This document shows positions 9,086-59,386 of a DNA stretch of 64,000 bases, piece after piece. Every line of letters begins with the position of its first letter. Positions within the stretch are counted from its first letter, which is position 1. The stretch is from assembly GCF_034480035.2 (NCBI RefSeq), contig NZ_CP118753.2, positions 1,893,426 through 1,957,425 on the forward strand. Direction: 5' to 3'. This DNA is from Methanosphaera sp. ISO3-F5 (lineage in GTDB: Archaea > Methanobacteriota > Methanobacteria > Methanobacteriales > Methanobacteriaceae). The translations under genes and the position numbers were made by a program. The notes under the pieces were generated by a model. That model worked only from the letters and a program-made list of their open reading frames with translations. It was not told where the DNA came from and ran no database searches.

Positions 9086-9126
9086 GTCGGATAAGTCGAG
9101 GGGATTGCTCCCCTCTTCTCTCCTAA

Positions 9127-9160
9127 GAACCGTACGTGTCAGTTTCCCGACATACGGCTC
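9127..9160 (-). ncRNA. Group II intron domain V
   Basis: A 34-nt hairpin with the conserved AGC near the 5' side (GAGCCGTATG) pairing with CGTACGGTTC and a GAAA-type apical loop. It is the catalytic core of the intron RNA, lying 44 nt after the maturase stop. Confidence 0.9.
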
Positions 9161-9204
9161 AAGCATATCTGATATTAAGAGAATAAGTTAGGTTTAAAGC
9201 GAGT

Positions 9205-10815
9205 TTATTTGTCGTATAGTACTTCGATTGGTGTTTTATGCCATATTTTCTGTATATATTCTTTGAATTGGTGGTCATATGGTGTGGCTTTGTATTTTAT
9301 TTGTCTTGAGTAATTTATTTTGAACCAAGACATTTTGATTAGTTGAGTTTTATGGTTTTCTGGATCGGTTAGTATGTATTTGTCTTTATGTTGTCGGAAG
9401 ATGTCCGGATGGAAATATCTTTGTAGTATCCATTTCCATGGCTTTTTGGGGTGTCGTCGTTTTAGGTATTTGCGTGTTAATTGCCATTGGTAGTATGTTA
9501 TTTTGTTAAATGTTTCTGATGCTGATGTTTGACGCCAGTAGTGAGCTGTTCCTCTTATTGTATTGTTTGCTTTCTTAATAAGTTCTTCTATGGGTTTGGA
9601 TTTGTGTAGTTTGAATAGTAGTTTTAGTTTCTTCTTCAAGTTTTGTATTGATTTCTTAGATGGTTTTGTTAGTACTTTGAATCCCTTTTTCTTGTTGTCT
9701 CTGTATGCTCTGATATTAAATCCTAGAAAATCAAATCCATCTTTGATATGTGTAATCAGTGTTTTCTCTGGTGATAGTTCAAGTCCTCTCTCTGTTAAAT
9801 ATGGTTTCAGTAGATTTAATGCTTCTTTTGCGTCTTCTCTTGTTTTACATAGTACTATGAAGTCATCCGCGTATCTTATCATCACGTATCGTGATTTATT
9901 GACATATGATGTTCTCTTGTTTGTTTTATTGTATACTTTCTTGTATGTTATTCCAAGTGCTTTTTCCATCCCGTCAAGTGCTATATTAGCAAGCAATGGT
10001 GAAATTATACCTCCTTGAGGAGTTCCATCATCAGATGGATGAAAAATAGCATCTTCCATATAACCTGCTTTAAGCCATGAATGAATAATAGTTTTAGCAG
10101 GAAAATTTCCCAACTGTTTTATTATCCAGTCATGACTCAATGTATCAAAACATGATTTAAAATCACCTTCCAGTATCCAAGGACGCTTTAACCCCCTAGT
10201 AAAAGCATGTATTTTAGCTATAGCATGACCAGCATTACGCAAAGGTCTAAATCCATAACTAGTTGATTCAAACACAGCTTCAAAACGAGGTTCAAGTGCC
10301 AAATATACAATCATCTGCAGAACCCTATCAGTAATGGTAGGAATACCCAAAGGTCTTCTCTTCCCATTCGACTTCCTGATATAAGTTCTGCGAACTGGTA
10401 AAACATCAAAATCATTAATGTTTGTACCAAGGAGTTTATAGTAAAGTGCACGACGCTGAGCCTTAGTAGTGATAATCATATTATCAATACCAGCTGTTCT
10501 AGCACCTCTATTGAATTGAGTGACTCTTTTGATAGCATAAAGGATAGCTGAGCTACTTTTCATCAACAAAGATTCCAAATTACGCACCTTACGATAATCC
10601 CCTTCTCTTACCGCTTTAAATATTTGTGTTTGTAAATCGAAGATGTGCTCTTCAATCTGAGTCCAGGGAATCGCTTCCCATTCTTCTTCAAGTTGAGACT
10701 CATGTAATTCCGCATAAGTAAGAACATCCATATCCTTACCTCTTTCAACATGAACTACATTTTCAGCATTATCATTAATAATTCTTAACACCTCCTCCCT
10801 TATCTGATTTACCAT
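9205..10815 (-). CDS. ltrA: Group II intron-encoded reverse transcriptase/maturase (no endonuclease domain)
   Basis: This protein of about 536 residues has the reverse transcriptase order: TAGIDN region, RRPLGIPTITDRVLQM, SYGFRPLRNAGHAI, LEGDFKSCFDTLSHDW, GTPQGGIISPLLANIALDGM and the catalytic RYADDFIVL. The maturase (X) domain follows (KKANNTIRGTAHYWRQTSAS and the HPKKPWKWILQRYF region). It ends shortly after SPYD-type sequence (ATPYDHQFKEYIQK). The Cys/His HNH endonuclease found in LtrA is absent. It should splice this intron and reverse-transcribe it during retrohoming. The start is uncertain: ATG 10815 (MVNQIREEVL) is used, and a TTG at 10854 is possible. It is clearly related to the enzyme at 55228-56757. 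Confidence 0.93.
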   Translation of the reverse strand: MVNQIREEVLRIINDNAENVVHVERGKDMDVLTYAELHESQLEEEWEAIPWTQIEEHIFDLQTQIFKAVREGDYRKVRNLESLLMKSSSAILYAIKRVTQFNRGARTAGIDNMIITTKAQRRALYYKLLGTNINDFDVLPVRRTYIRKSNGKRRPLGIPTITDRVLQMIVYLALEPRFEAVFESTSYGFRPLRNAGHAIAKIHAFTRGLKRPWILEGDFKSCFDTLSHDWIIKQLGNFPAKTIIHSWLKAGYMEDAIFHPSDDGTPQGGIISPLLANIALDGMEKALGITYKKVYNKTNKRTSYVNKSRYVMIRYADDFIVLCKTREDAKEALNLLKPYLTERGLELSPEKTLITHIKDGFDFLGFNIRAYRDNKKKGFKVLTKPSKKSIQNLKKKLKLLFKLHKSKPIEELIKKANNTIRGTAHYWRQTSASETFNKITYYQWQLTRKYLKRRHPKKPWKWILQRYFHPDIFRQHKDKYILTDPENHKTQLIKMSWFKINYSRQIKYKATPYDHQFKEYIQKIWHKTPIEVLYDK

Positions 10816-11480
10816 ACACAAGTAAAATATTCCTATCTTTTTCTCAAAGTTCAATTAATACACCTGTTAAAGTGGGCATATCCCCCCATAGTTATAAAGT
10901 TGCTTCTATTTCCTATGTGCCTTTCGACAATAGTAGGGGCATTAGCTTTCTTAACATCCTTTACCCAACAAGGATTATCAGCATCCGCTCACGCAGTAGC
11001 CTTCCAAACTTGTAACATATCACTTGACTAGTACAATTTGGACCAATTGCTGGGCTTACCAAGTTTATCTTCTGTCAGATACGAATAAATTCAACTTAGG
11101 CTCTTCTTTTACACCAGTAAATCAACTATTGGGTTATGAATGGATGACACGTGAACAAAACCGTGCCTCACCAAGGATTTACAATACTCATAGGGTTACC
11201 AGTACTCATTCCTATAATTATACGTTGTGATGCTTAAAGAAGTTCATAAAATTTCTTAGTATTAGCCATTATTGATTCTTTCTCTAGCCCTTAACTTTCT
11301 TCCGAGTACTTCGAAAATTAATTAGGCACTTAACTCTCATGCAACCCACACCCCCCGTTACCAGAAAGTGCAGTTTCGAGCGAGAATAACCACCATAACC
11401 TAGGTTAACAAGAACAACCAATGATAATCATCGGTCTCTTGTACTGACTGCGAAGCAAAGAAGATAATTTCTTGTCGCAC

Positions 11481-52365: not shown

Positions 52366-53643
52366 TTGTTAGATATTAAAATATTTAGAGATAATCCTGA
52401 AACAGTATTTGAATCAGAAAAGAAAAGATTCAGAGAAACAACAAACGCAGAAAAAGTAATAGAATACGATAATTTATGGAGGGACGGACTTAAAAGATTA
52501 AACGATCTACGTTCAGAAAAAAATAAGTTATCAAAATCATTCAAACAAGCAAAAAAAGATGGTAACATCGAAGAAGTCATAACCAAATCAAAAGAAGTTG
52601 CCAATGAAATAAAAGAACTTGAACCAAAAATCGAGGAATACATTAAAATCCGTGACGATTACAGGTACAAGGTAGGTAACATCATTGATTCAGAAGTTCC
52701 AATCTCAGACACTGAAGATGATAATTTGATAGTGAAAGAGGAAGGAAACAAAAAATCATTCGATTTCACACCATTAAACCATGTTGATTTAATTCAAAAA
52801 ATTGACGGAGCTGACACAGAAACAGCATCAAGCATAGCAGGTTCAAGATTTTATTACCTGAAACAGGACATACTATTCTTAAACCTTGCATTAATACAAT
52901 TTGCATTAAATGAACTCAAACAACAGGGATACACACCACTACAAACACCATTCTTCGTTAAAAGTGAAGTAGCAGCAGAAACATCCGAACTAGGAGAATT
53001 TCAGGAAACACTATACAAAGTAGAAAACGAGGACTTATACCTCATAGCAACCGCTGAACAAACACTAGCAGCACTTCACCGGGACGAAATCATAAGCTCA
53101 GAAGACCTTCCACTACGTTACTGTGCATTATCAACATGCTTCAGAAAGGAAGCAGGATCACACGGTAAAGACACACTGGGAATATTCAGAGTACACCAGT
53201 TCGAGAAAATTGAACAGTTCATATACTCCACCCCTGAAGAATCAGTAAATGAACATAAAAGATTACTCGAAGTAACAGAGAACATATACAAAAAATTAGG
53301 ATTATCTTACAGGATAGTTTCAATAGTATCCTCAGCTTTAAATGATAATGCAGCAATAAAGTATGACCTCGAAGCATGGTTCCCAGGTTCTAATGCATAC
53401 AGGGAACTGGTTTCATGCACAAACTGTAAAGATTATCAGGCAAGAAAAACCAAAACTCGTGTAGGACAAGCAGGAGCAGGAGATGCCGTTACTTTACACA
53501 CACTTAACAGTACGGCTATTGCTACAGAAAGAACTATATGCTGTATTCTTGAAAACTATCAGCAAGAAGACGGTAGCATAAAAGTTCCAGATGTATTAGT
53601 ACCATACATGAATGGTAAAACAGTCATTGAAGCTAAAAATTAA
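52366..53643 (+). CDS. serS: Seryl-tRNA synthetase, common (bacterial-like) type
   Basis: This 425-residue protein has an N-terminal coiled-coil tRNA-binding arm (about residues 30-100: KRLNDLRSEKNKLSKSFKQA). Class II motifs follow: TPLQTPFFVKSEV, ALSTCFRKEAGSHGKDTLGI with FRVHQFEKIEQF (motif 2), and LNSTAIATERTICCILENYQ (motif 3). This is the widespread SerRS, not the rare zinc-dependent methanogen type. The start is TTG 52366 with GGGGTAAT upstream. A group II intron begins 15 nt after the stop, in a T-run. Confidence 0.95.
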   Translation: MLDIKIFRDNPETVFESEKKRFRETTNAEKVIEYDNLWRDGLKRLNDLRSEKNKLSKSFKQAKKDGNIEEVITKSKEVANEIKELEPKIEEYIKIRDDYRYKVGNIIDSEVPISDTEDDNLIVKEEGNKKSFDFTPLNHVDLIQKIDGADTETASSIAGSRFYYLKQDILFLNLALIQFALNELKQQGYTPLQTPFFVKSEVAAETSELGEFQETLYKVENEDLYLIATAEQTLAALHRDEIISSEDLPLRYCALSTCFRKEAGSHGKDTLGIFRVHQFEKIEQFIYSTPEESVNEHKRLLEVTENIYKKLGLSYRIVSIVSSALNDNAAIKYDLEAWFPGSNAYRELVSCTNCKDYQARKTKTRVGQAGAGDAVTLHTLNSTAIATERTICCILENYQQEDGSIKVPDVLVPYMNGKTVIEAKN

Positions 53644-54489
53644 CCCCCATTTTTTTTGGTGCGACGAGCGATTATCTTTAATTTTGTTCGCACATTAAAT
53701 TCTTTTTTTTGTGTTGGTATAGTATTTATTTGAACGGATACTTTTAACCTTGTTGTATGGGTTATTCTCCCTTGAAACTGTGTTACTGGTAACTGTGGGG
53801 GTAGTTTGCATGATAGGTAAAGCTTAATCTTATTCCTAGCATCCATGGAATGGAGGGCGAGAGAAAGACCAATAGTTGGGTTAATGTTAAATGAACTTTT
53901 ATAAGCATTGTGAAGTGGGCCAACATGTTAGGATGATTAAAGGATGTGTTGAAGATTGTAGGCAGGTTAGACGAAGTGAAAAAGGACGTCTATTGATTAC
54001 TACCTGTATGTCTGTCGGTGTAATGGGAGAGCCTAAGTTGTGTCGTAGTGTCTAACAGAAGATAAACTCGGTAAGTCCAGTAAAGTCTAATAACTATTAT
54101 TGGTAGGGGTTTCTGTGAGGAAATTCTAAGACTTTATTGGGTAAGGGATGTTGAGAAAAGCTAATGCCATCGTGAGTCGTTGAGACAGCAGGAATTTAAC
54201 AAAATTACGACTGTTTGATGGATATGCTGACTTCAACAGGTGTATAACATGATTATTAAAACGGATTTGTATTCATAGGGATGTGTGATGATATTATGAG
54301 TCAATTTTCAGTTGAAGAAAACTGTAGAAACTCTAGTGGTTTGTGTCAGTCCACGATAATTAGACAAACTCGACGAAGAATGGTCCAATATTAATTGGAA
54401 CTATGTTACTCGAAGCATACATCGGATACAATAGTGGAGAATTTATGCTGAAGAAACTAGTGAAGTTTCTTTAGATAACTAATATGCTT

Positions 54490-54523
54490 GAGCTGTATGT
54501 CTGGAAACGGACACGTACGGTTC
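54490..54523 (+). ncRNA. Group II intron domain V (outer intron)
   Basis: A fully paired 34-nt domain V of the outer intron. The inner intron starts 11 nt after it (54534), in the linker to domain VI. Confidence 0.9.
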
Positions 54524-55227
54524 TGAGGAGAGAGTGCGACAAGATAGGATCTCCAATTCCCATTGTTGTCAGTGAAACAAGGATATTGTTCTTGTTTTAA
54601 TCCTAGTCGTATTGGGATTTCATTATCTGAAACTTCTAATTGAGTGATTGGTTGGAAGGTTGCATGACGAAAAGTCTAATCAAATATCCTTATTTTCCAA
54701 AATATTATATATTCAAAGGGATGTTTGGGGGCTAAATGAAGAGTAAAATAATGGTTAACTTAAAGTGAATGGTTGTAAGCCTCGTCACAGATAACAATTG
54801 AATAATTTGAATAATACCTATTAAATAGGATTTTTGGAAATATAATTGTCTTATAAACAGGAAATAAGTATTTCTCTCATACTTAATTGTATACGACCCA
54901 CATGTTTATCGGGGTATAGACTGAACCTGCACTTACTCGTATCTGGCTGGAGATTAACTTGGTAAGCTTCTTATGGTCTCAAAGATTAGTTTTTTTGAGT
55001 AAGTGGATTGTGAATGAAGCCTAAATCCATAGGATGTAGAGGATTTTGGAGGAAGCTAATGCCGTTATTAACCGAAAGGTAGCAGAAAAGAAAGGGAATT
55101 AGAACTGTGAACGGATACCATTCCTTAATTTATGGATGGACTTGGAAACAAGGCAGACTTCCAAATGGTGAACAACACGTGAATAAAGCGTTTTTATTTA
55201 GTATTTACTGAAAGGATGGTGAATATA

Positions 55228-56757
55228 ATGATGAGTAACACCTGTAATAATAATTATAGGTCCACGACTCCATACACTACTGATTGGTCTTGTATTAAAT
55301 GGAATAGGATTGAAAAGTATGTAAGTAAATTACAGAAGCGAATATTTCGTGCCGAGCGTAATGGTAATTCTCATAAAGTACGTGATTTGCAACGAATGTT
55401 AGTTTATAGTGAATCAGCGTTACTTATGGCTATTAAAAGAGTTACTCAGATTAATAAAGGTAAAAGAACACCTGGAATTGATAATTTTCGTGCTTTATCG
55501 GATGAAGCACGTGGTGAACTTTTTGATTCGATGAAGTTAATGAATATTAAGAAACATAGGCCTAAACCCGCATATCGTACTTATATTCCTAAAAAGAATG
55601 GTAAATTACGTTCACTGGGTATACCTGCAATAGTTGATAGAATATATCAAGAAATTCTTCGTATGGCCCTTGAACCACAAGCAGAAGCTTATTTTGAGCC
55701 TACTAGTTATGGTTTCAGACCTAAAAGAGGTACTTTTGATGCTGCCGAAAGAATCTTTTATAACATCAGAAATGGAAAATGGAACTGGGTATTTGAAGGA
55801 GATTTTCGAGCTTGTTTCGATACACTTTCACATGATTTCATTTTAAAACAAATAAAGGGATTTCCCTTTGTTAAAGTTGTTGAACGATTTTTAAAAGCAG
55901 GATATGTGGATAATAAAGTATTTAATCCTACTAATGAAGGTACACCTCAAGGGGGCTTATTATCGCCATTGCTTGCAAATATTGCATTACATGGTATGGA
56001 AGAAATTTTAAACATATCCTATCATAAAAGAAATAGTATACGAAATGGAAAAGTATATGAATCCTTTGAAACTAAAGGAAAATATCGAATTGTTAGGTAT
56101 GCGGATGATTTTGTGATATTTGCCAGAAATAAGGAAGATATTTTAGAAGTAGATAATATTCTTCAACCTTATCTTAAAGACAGAGGTTTAACTCTTGCTT
56201 TAGATAAAACGAAGATTACAAATATTCATGATGGATTTGATTTTCTAGGTTTTGAATTCAAAAGACATAAAACTCATAATGGATTTAAATCTCTTATCAA
56301 ACCAGCTAAAAGTGGTATTCAGAAATTTATGAAAGAAATTGACCGAAGATTTAAAATTATGAATGGTAATAATGTTGATTCGTTAATTAATTTTATTAAT
56401 CCATTAATTCGAGGAACGGCTAATTATTGGAAACCCTTTATTTCTAGTCGTATATTTTCTAAAATGGATAATTACATTTGGAAAAAGACTTATAAATTTC
56501 TTAGAAGATTGCATCCACATAAAAGTTGGGGTTGGATTAAGAAGAAATACTTTCCACCTTATAATGATGGTAGACATAGGGATAATTGGATTTTAACTGG
56601 CCCTAACGATGGTCTTTGTTTGGCTAAAATGAGTTGGGTTAAGATTAAGAGACATATTATGATTAAACATGATTATAGTCCTTATGATGCTACTAAATCA
56701 GATTATTTTAATATGAGAAATCTTAAATATAAGAATATGCCCTTACATCTTGGATAA
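55228..56757 (+). CDS. ltrA: Group II intron-encoded reverse transcriptase/maturase (no endonuclease domain)
   Basis: This protein of about 509 residues has all the reverse transcriptase motifs: KRTPGIDNFRAL, GKLRSLGIPAIVDRIYQEIL, SYGFRPKRGTFDAAER, FEGDFRACFDTLSHDFI, EGTPQGGLLSPLLANIALHG and YRIVRYADDFVIFARN. The maturase domain follows (INPLIRGTANYWKPFISSRI and LHPHKSWGWIKKKYFP). The C-terminus ends after SPYDATKSDYFNMRN without an HNH endonuclease. ATG 55228 is chosen because GGTGA lies just upstream. It is homologous to the protein at 9205-10815 but clearly diverged. It probably serves the inner intron and possibly, in trans, the ORF-less introns around it. Confidence 0.94.
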   Translation: MMSNTCNNNYRSTTPYTTDWSCIKWNRIEKYVSKLQKRIFRAERNGNSHKVRDLQRMLVYSESALLMAIKRVTQINKGKRTPGIDNFRALSDEARGELFDSMKLMNIKKHRPKPAYRTYIPKKNGKLRSLGIPAIVDRIYQEILRMALEPQAEAYFEPTSYGFRPKRGTFDAAERIFYNIRNGKWNWVFEGDFRACFDTLSHDFILKQIKGFPFVKVVERFLKAGYVDNKVFNPTNEGTPQGGLLSPLLANIALHGMEEILNISYHKRNSIRNGKVYESFETKGKYRIVRYADDFVIFARNKEDILEVDNILQPYLKDRGLTLALDKTKITNIHDGFDFLGFEFKRHKTHNGFKSLIKPAKSGIQKFMKEIDRRFKIMNGNNVDSLINFINPLIRGTANYWKPFISSRIFSKMDNYIWKKTYKFLRRLHPHKSWGWIKKKYFPPYNDGRHRDNWILTGPNDGLCLAKMSWVKIKRHIMIKHDYSPYDATKSDYFNMRNLKYKNMPLHLG

Positions 56758-56767
56758 AAGTTTGCTC

Positions 56768-56801
56768 GAGCTGTATGTCTGGAAACAGACACGTACAGTT
56801 C
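56768..56801 (+). ncRNA. Group II intron domain V (inner intron)
   Basis: A 34-nt hairpin GAGCTGTATG...CGTACAGTTC starting 10 nt after the maturase stop. The catalytic AGC and the GGAAAC apex are present. Confidence 0.9.
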
Positions 56802-56943
56802 CAAAGAGAGTATGGGGGAGTAATCCTCCAATCTTATCTGACAGGAGTGAGCAATCACTCCGACTTATCAGACAACTAGTAAAATATCCTTACGACAATT
56901 ATATTCAAAGCCATCGATTAAAAGATGGATGATGTATCTCAAT

Positions 56944-58301: not shown

Positions 58302-58328
58302 CGTTAATGTTAAATCATTTTCTTTTTT

Positions 58329-59239
58329 GTGCGACGAGAAATCATCTTTAATTTTGTTCGCACCTTAAATTCTTTCTTTTTTGGTGTGTGTATGTATAGT
58401 ATTTATTTGAACGGATACTTTTAACCTTGTTGTATGGGTTATTCTCCCTTGAAACTGCGTTACTGGTAACTGTGGGGGTAGGTTGCATGATAGGTAAATC
58501 CTAATCTTATTCCTAGTATCCATGGAATGGAGGGCGAGAGAAAGACCAATAATTTGGTTAATGTTAAATGAACTTTTATAAGCATCGTGTAGTGGGCCAA
58601 CATGTTAGGATGATTAAAGGATGTGTTGAAGATTGTAGGCAGGTTAGACGAAGTGTAAAAGGACGTCTATTGATTACTACCTGTATGTCTGTCGGTGTAT
58701 TGGGAGAGCCTAAGTTGTGTCGTAGTGTCTAACATAAGATGAACTCGGTAAGTCCAGTAAAGTCTAATAACTATTATTGGTAGGGGTTTCTGTGAGGAAA
58801 TTCTAAGACTTTATTGGGTAAGGGATGTTGAGAAAGCTAATTCCATTGTGTGTAGTTAAGATGGCAGGAATTTAACAAAATTGTAACTGTTTGATGGATA
58901 TGCTGACTTCAACAGGTGTATAATATGATTATTAAAAGGATTTGTATTCATAGGGATGTGTGATGATATTATGAGTCAATTTTCAGTTGAAGAAAACTGT
59001 AGAAACTCTAGTGGTTTGTGTCAGTCCACGATAATTAGATAAACTCGACGAAGAATGGTCCAATATTAATTGGAACTATGTTACTCGAAGCATACATCGG
59101 ATACAATAGCGGATAATTTATGCTGAAGAAACTAGTGAAGTTTCTTTAGATAACTAATATGTTTGAGCTGTATGTCTGGAAACGGACACGTAAGGTTCTG
59201 AGGAGAGGAGGAGAGAGCAACCTCTCTAACTTATTTGAA
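58329..59239 (+). mobile_element. ORF-less group II intron, uninterrupted copy
   Basis: It starts GTGCGACGAG at 58329, 27 nt after the stop of the peptidase fragment, in a T-run. It is nearly identical to the outer intron at 53659 from its 5' end to domain V. Domain V is at 59165-59198 but has GTAAGGTTC where the other copies have GTACGGTTC, which breaks one G-C pair. Domain VI follows (GGAGAGAGCAACCTCTCT). The 3' end aligned to the outer intron reads CTTATTTGAA and lacks the usual AY terminus, so this copy may be defective. The end is uncertain by a few bases. Confidence 0.85.
59165..59198 (+). ncRNA. Group II intron domain V with a disrupted pair
   Basis: GAGCTGTATG is opposite CGTAAGGTTC; the C-to-A change creates a G-A mismatch in the lower stem compared with 54490-54523. 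Confidence 0.8.
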
Positions 59240-59386
59240 ATATATTTTTTTCTAACATTTTTATATAACTTCTAACATATCATTAAATAATTAAATAATT
59301 TACGAATAATAAAAGAAAAGTAATAGATTCATATTAATTATTCAGTAATTAATTCATTTATAACAGCAAATACAAGGTGATCAAAT

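Follow-up and report, generated by a model that had tools for sequence, protein, structure and literature searches.

Two group II introns, one nested inside the other, lie directly behind serS in Methanosphaera sp. ISO3-F5, a gut methanogen, within the window analysed here (64,000 nucleotides of contig NZ_CP118753.2). The genome (G000; ~2.68 Mb, two contigs) looks complete, and its close relatives are also Methanosphaera, namely G121 from the same species and G126 from the same genus, both MAGs. The outer intron is intergenic: it starts behind a T-run, at a distance of 15 nt from the serS stop codon. This intron carries no ORF, opens with GTGCGACGAG at 53659 and closes with CTTATCAGAC at 56873. 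It is split after 54533 and picks up again at 56843, and the sequence in between is an inner intron with the termini GTGCGACAAG (54534) and ATCTTATCTGAC (56842). The features are listed below in window coordinates, with the evidence for each.

9086 to 11480, reverse strand: third window intron with its own protein (IEP) and an uninterrupted domain VI (DVI), used for sequence comparison
53659 to 54533, forward strand: 5' part of the outer intron (DI-DV and the basal 5' strand of DVI), 94% identical to the paralogue at 58329
53913 to 53919, forward strand: outer EBS2 (AAGTGGG), with its partner CCCATTT upstream of the intron; aligned with EBS2 of other introns
54490 to 54523, forward strand: outer domain V (DV), 34 nt; RF00029 match and helix counts
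54527 to 54533, forward strand: basal 5' strand of the outer DVI (GGAGAG) and a single loop base, together holding the inner IBS1 GAGAGA (54528-54533); compensatory changes and EBS1/IBS1 pairing of 6/6
54534 to 56842, forward strand: complete inner group II intron, 2309 nt; GTGCG...AC ends, DV-DVI, EBS sites and IEP
54786 to 54791, forward strand: inner EBS2 (CACAGA), pairing 5/6 with TCTGAG in the host; aligned position and pairing score
54873 to 54878, forward strand: inner EBS1 (TCTCTC), pairing 6/6 with GAGAGA of the host DVI; it lines up with EBS1 in further introns of the order
54917, forward strand: inner EBS3 (T), partner A at 56843 (+1); across the introns of the genome, this position and the +1 base co-vary
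55216 to 56757, forward strand: inner IEP, 513 aa, with RVT_N, RVT_1 (YADD) and GIIM; profile matches
56768 to 56801, forward strand: inner DV; RF00029
56805 to 56842, forward strand: inner DVI, with an unpaired branch-type A at 56836, 7 nt before the 3' end; DV-DVI alignment
56843 to 56873, forward strand: remainder of the outer DVI (upper hairpin, 3' strand, branch-type A at 56867); the rejoined DVI pairs as in 15 other introns
58329 to 59240, forward strand: uninterrupted paralogue of the outer intron with undivided DVI (empty-site control), 94% identical to the rejoined outer intron

The original prediction of nested introns at 53659-56873 and 54534-56842 proved exact, as intron ends, DV-DVI segments and the comparison with the paralogue all agree, and the same holds for the ORF-less state, DV position and 3' end that it gave for the outer intron. 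Its maturase reading frame is present and ends where predicted, but the start assigned to it, 55228, is an internal ATG. Removal of the inner intron had been expected to rebuild the outer one, and does so: the result is 906 nt long and aligns end to end with the paralogue. The Rfam model RF00029 matches DV-DVI of both introns at 52.5 bits (outer, at 54488) and 48.1 bits (inner, at 56766). Rfam models beyond the DV-type ones gave nothing useful for DI-DIV, so the completeness of these domains was judged by alignment with intact relatives.

DVI is undivided in all further IEP-bearing introns of the window genome, and one more weak DV match (L011) is followed by a decayed DVI. The outer intron is an exception among the genome's introns, with no pairing between its EBS3 and its +1 base. 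It has a third copy in the genome (L178, G000:C1:1843884-1844660), which is 92% identical but only up to position 771, the match lacking DV-DVI. The intron at 9086-11480 seems to break a small zinc-finger transposase-like reading frame. Four IEP introns (L012, L015, L016 and L017), which are 97-98% identical and lie on the chromosome and the second contig, occupy sites preceded by similar GG.GGA-type sequence, and their EBS2 changes together with the site. The ORF-less host intron and those related to it (53640-53659, 58310-58329, L095 and L037) sit directly after T-runs behind genes, which resemble archaeal terminators, and have an A-rich EBS1. These sites form an archaeal parallel to the terminator-targeting of IIC introns.

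Insertion point and probable target recognition in domain VI

The original prediction placed the insertion in the linker between DV and DVI, and this is refuted. The joiner of the outer intron consists of TGA only (54524-54526), and the GGAGAG that follows pairs with a CUUAUC strand around an unpaired A, 7 nt before the 3' end. The Rfam model shows this pairing, and so does the alignment of DV-DVI from 16 stretches. In this alignment the DVI helix is 94.8% paired, with two-sided changes in 10 of 12 pairs, compared with at most 47.5% of cells paired when the whole structure is slid along the alignment as a control. Two-sided compensatory changes occur in four of the five basal pairs and include exchanges from GC to AU and from AU to GC. 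Since these changes identify GGAGAGA as the basal 5' strand of DVI plus one internal-loop base, the insertion lies inside DVI and not in the joiner, dividing DVI at the boundary of its basal and upper helices.

Target recognition appears to rest mainly on EBS1. With hexamers chosen by eye from alignments and wobbles allowed, EBS1 pairs 6/6 with its own IBS1 in 12/12 introns, and 1/132 swapped combinations do so; this tally excludes L039, which pairs poorly, and L091 (5/6, one wobble). In the inner family, seven of the nine DVI sites read GAGAGA and pair 6/6 with EBS1; the imperfect ones are GAGAAG on contig C201 of G121 (5/6, one wobble) and GAGAGT in the inner intron itself (5/6). EBS2-IBS2 pairing in this family is weak, at 2-5/6 across sites. 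The inner EBS2 region at 54786-54795 (CACAGATAAC; CACGGATAAC in the G121/G054 type) comes close to complementing the 3' strand of DVI (TTATCTG, TTATCCG), and the two vary together, which may be chance.

The inner intron family and its hosts

The inner IEP matches PF13655, PF00078, PF08388 and TIGR04416, indicating that both reverse transcriptase and maturase domains are present; profiles for an endonuclease (En/HNH) domain gave no match to any En model. Its nearest solved structure is 6me0 (E 5e-93), the IEP of a T. elongatus IIB intron, and the match stops at residue 485 of 562 of 6me0_C. The inner intron looks like a mobile group II intron of IIB-like type, probably with a CL-like IEP; the IEP tree covers relatives from this order and one Ruminococcaceae row. 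With respect to group IIC introns, which have a class C IEP and insert behind a hairpin, the evidence is mixed: DV forms a hairpin 10 nt upstream of the insertion site, but the IEP fits 6me0 far better than the GsI-IIC RT, and the inner intron has relatives at coding-sequence sites.

In the IEP tree, the inner family is separated from the Methanosphaera host introns with support of 100/100, and its clade is drawn mostly from a single other genus group (g10; the one named case is Methanobrevibacter). Two relatives within this order, L029 and L035, occupy ORFs of other introns, inserted exactly where the codons for YADDF and FNFLGF end. These are cases of Methanosarcina-type ORF homing, whereas the inner intron of the window sits in DVI of an ORF-less host.

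The arrangement recurs in other genomes. A search of 151 genomes of the order with the inner 5'-end pattern, allowing up to two mismatches, returned ten places. Nine are exact, and all nine share one DVI column. They come from one Methanobrevibacter and three Methanosphaera genomes: the window, five contigs of G121 (C27, C28, C32, C113 and C201), two places in G126 and one in Methanobrevibacter G054. The reversed junction pattern, run as a control, matched once in the 151 genomes. As the same 5' junction is found in independent assemblies, chance or misassembly can be excluded as the source of the twintron. The tenth place, with one mismatch, lies in G043 behind GTCGAGGTAGTTCAA, and the same upstream sequence is found in a relative from a contig filed under Ruminococcaceae. 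For both relatives (L212 in G043, L211:3911 on that contig), the GTCGAGGTAGTTCAA-type site seems to lie behind a transposon-type gene.

The window has the sole copy that is complete and flanked by both parts of its host; the others stop at MAG contig ends. Supporting the junction from the other side, three further G121 contigs (C31, C36 and C59) carry the inner 3' end followed by AAGAGAGAGCAATCTCTC[C/T]GACTTATCCGAC, which is the remaining host DVI. Copies of the inner intron are 88-89% identical in G054 and 99% in G126, where the IEP equals that of the window over all 509 residues. The inner 5' ends at the five G121 loci are identical in sequence, pointing to recent mobility.

The hosts are diverse. 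They include the ORF-less intron of the window, the hosts on G121 contigs C27, C28, C32 and C201, several ORF-bearing types and the inner intron itself, which in G126 has been invaded in its own DVI after GAGAGT, giving a triple nest. A host type with a 570-aa ORF is found in G121 (C113) and G126, and G054 has a host resembling it; hosts other than this type differ strongly, at about 65-77% DNA identity. The C28 host of G121 is 97.6% identical to an uninterrupted intron of G000.

Among the genomes of 84,980 species, a global scan for DV with an intron start behind it matched only Methanosphaera and Methanobrevibacter contigs, one false positive in Brasilonema and one independent case on the Ruminococcaceae-filed contig. 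The Brasilonema candidate (L088) was rejected because DVI itself contains GTGCGAC there, as sister introns in that genome show. On the Ruminococcaceae-filed contig, an intron of the other IEP clade splits the host DVI after GGGA, four bases further upstream, and the host intron has a 5' end resembling the inner family. By its sequence, this is an independent DVI nest. Its contig has bacterial-looking genes with methanogen-like introns, which would fit either transfer or chimaerism. On the same contig, a DVI nest (L091, L211) is followed by another DV-half and DVI remnant. A search of IMG/VR viral contigs gave no match.

Probable homing, splicing and loss

We consider it very probable that the twintron arose by retrohoming of an endonuclease-less mobile intron into DVI of an ORF-less host, and that the inner family targets the DVI core. 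An inner RNP (lariat and IEP) would find the DV-DVI core in DNA through EBS1, aided by EBS2 and EBS3, and reverse-splice into it. The inserted RNA would then be copied by the reverse transcriptase of the IEP from a primer supplied by the replication fork; such priming is likely because the IEP lacks an endonuclease, as in the mobile endonuclease-less group II introns that are already known (PMC4424553). Homing at the DNA level and selection for a conserved target are both inferred. Nearly all group II introns of these methanogens would present the conserved core as a target, and insertion there would cost the cell little.

In the transcript, the inner intron would leave first, restoring DVI and its branch point, after which the host would splice. 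It is plausible that outer splicing occurs only after inner removal. Alternatives to this strict order would be hydrolysis of the host at its 5' splice site, or folding of DVI with a compact inner intron enclosed in it; a 2.3-kb insert need not block all host splicing. The ends of group II introns lie near each other in space, and with DI-DV intact upstream, the host could even splice first.

A different reading is that the inner intron landed in DVI but left a dead nest, in which neither intron now splices, or from which both leave as a unit, surviving as an intergenic fossil. Its position after serS is compatible with this, as the cell depends on no splicing there, and twintrons spliced as one unit have been reported in plant mitochondria (PMC8393795, PMC10012718). 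Nevertheless, the IEP is intact (YADD, maturase domain), as are DV, DVI and EBS1, and both the IEP identity with G126 and the identical 5' ends in G121 speak against decay, making this reading unlikely. It is more doubtful still that a single inherited twintron was copied along with its host intron, without specialisation of the family. Descent or transfer could account for the 570-aa-ORF hosts (G121 C113, G126) and for the one like them in G054, but the insertions into the ORF-less, C27, C28 and C201 hosts and into the inner intron itself cannot derive from one host, given their divergence. Least credible is DNA recombination between introns with crossovers in DV: conserved DVs are direct repeats that do seem to recombine in G121, but a DV crossover would not place a complete inner intron within an exactly rejoinable host DVI, and the junction is base-exact at several host loci, EBS1-matched and followed by the 3' part of the host DVI wherever this is visible.

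Retrohoming into DVI remains our preferred reading, with recombination apparently acting later, in loss. A scar intron in G121 (L180, G121:C197:26000-29932) consists of host DI, a DV that passes from host to inner, the inner DVI and then the remaining host DVI. On one side it borders on serS and on the other on the sequence found behind 59240 in the window, and it looks like the product of a DV-DV recombination that deleted the inner intron. Loss by this route would leave a hybrid intron. A second contig (C106) also ends in serS and an intron, so that a strain mixture in the G121 MAG is possible. The scar intron would gain a 3' extension or a shifted 3' splice site, reminiscent of the Bacillus introns with 3' extensions (PMC3261151).

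More broadly, and with confidence evenly divided for and against, the inner lineage may be regarded as a hyperparasite of group II introns whose EBS1 is set to the conserved DVI 5' strand. Loss through DV-DV recombination would swap the DV-DVI of the host, making nesting a route of 3'-domain and splice-site exchange. A DVI target would be hard for the host to mutate as an escape. Such a target provides a natural test of whether a DVI split by 2.3 kb can be restored through inner splicing, of self-target avoidance (the inner DVI has GAGAGT in place of GAGAGA), and of whether 3' ends are reshuffled among introns when nesting is followed by DV recombination. Interrupted, scarred and uninterrupted versions all occur within the same species.

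Relation to described twintrons

Nested introns of Methanosarcina acetivorans reportedly home into intron ORFs, judging by the title of a 2003 paper by Dai and Zimmerly. Unlike such ORF targets, the target here is the ribozyme core, inside DVI. The two systems are otherwise alike in being archaeal, in repeated homing into introns, in nesting at several levels and in lying outside host genes; in M. acetivorans, group II introns home repeatedly into other group II introns and form multi-level nests outside host genes, according to the summary in PMC4424553. In M. burtonii, copies of DV-DVI have been described both before and after the IEP (PMC8919778). It was considered as a further case and gave no match in the global scan.

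The novelty that the original prediction suggested stands in part. The literature search, which several key papers lie outside, found no family targeting DVI by EBS1 in many hosts and no prokaryotic precedent for homing into DVI, but insertions into the core are known. In Euglena, a twintron is said to be inserted in DV (the euglenoid plastid psbF case). In a complex euglenoid twintron, 3 nt separate the inner unit from the 3' end of the outer intron (PMC5572947). Euglenoid plastid twintrons thus share nesting with our case, including insertions near the catalytic core or 3' end, but they are degenerate introns, and no EBS-matched DVI-homing family was found among them in the literature searched (PMC5572947).

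In the Porphyridium plastid twintrons, too, a single inner intron occupies one site in two distinct outer introns, but the target is DIV, within an IEP remnant (PMC4476101). The Trichodesmium twintron likewise consists of two complete group II introns, with sequential splicing shown in vivo, but its inner intron lies in DI, at a single locus in a protein gene (PMC4649490). TeI3/TeI4 of Thermosynechococcus elongatus resemble the present family in using one conserved site in several hosts for one inner family, in EBS guidance and in targeting mobile elements; they differ in that insertion falls between two ATGs of the IEP ORF in DIV, the inner introns are ORF-less and the hosts are closely related (PMC2882425). 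In the literature searched, known prokaryotic twintrons thus occupy peripheral or coding parts of the host intron, whereas here the branch-point domain beside the catalytic helix is split. The case is both recurrent and targeted, which takes it beyond a single twintron.
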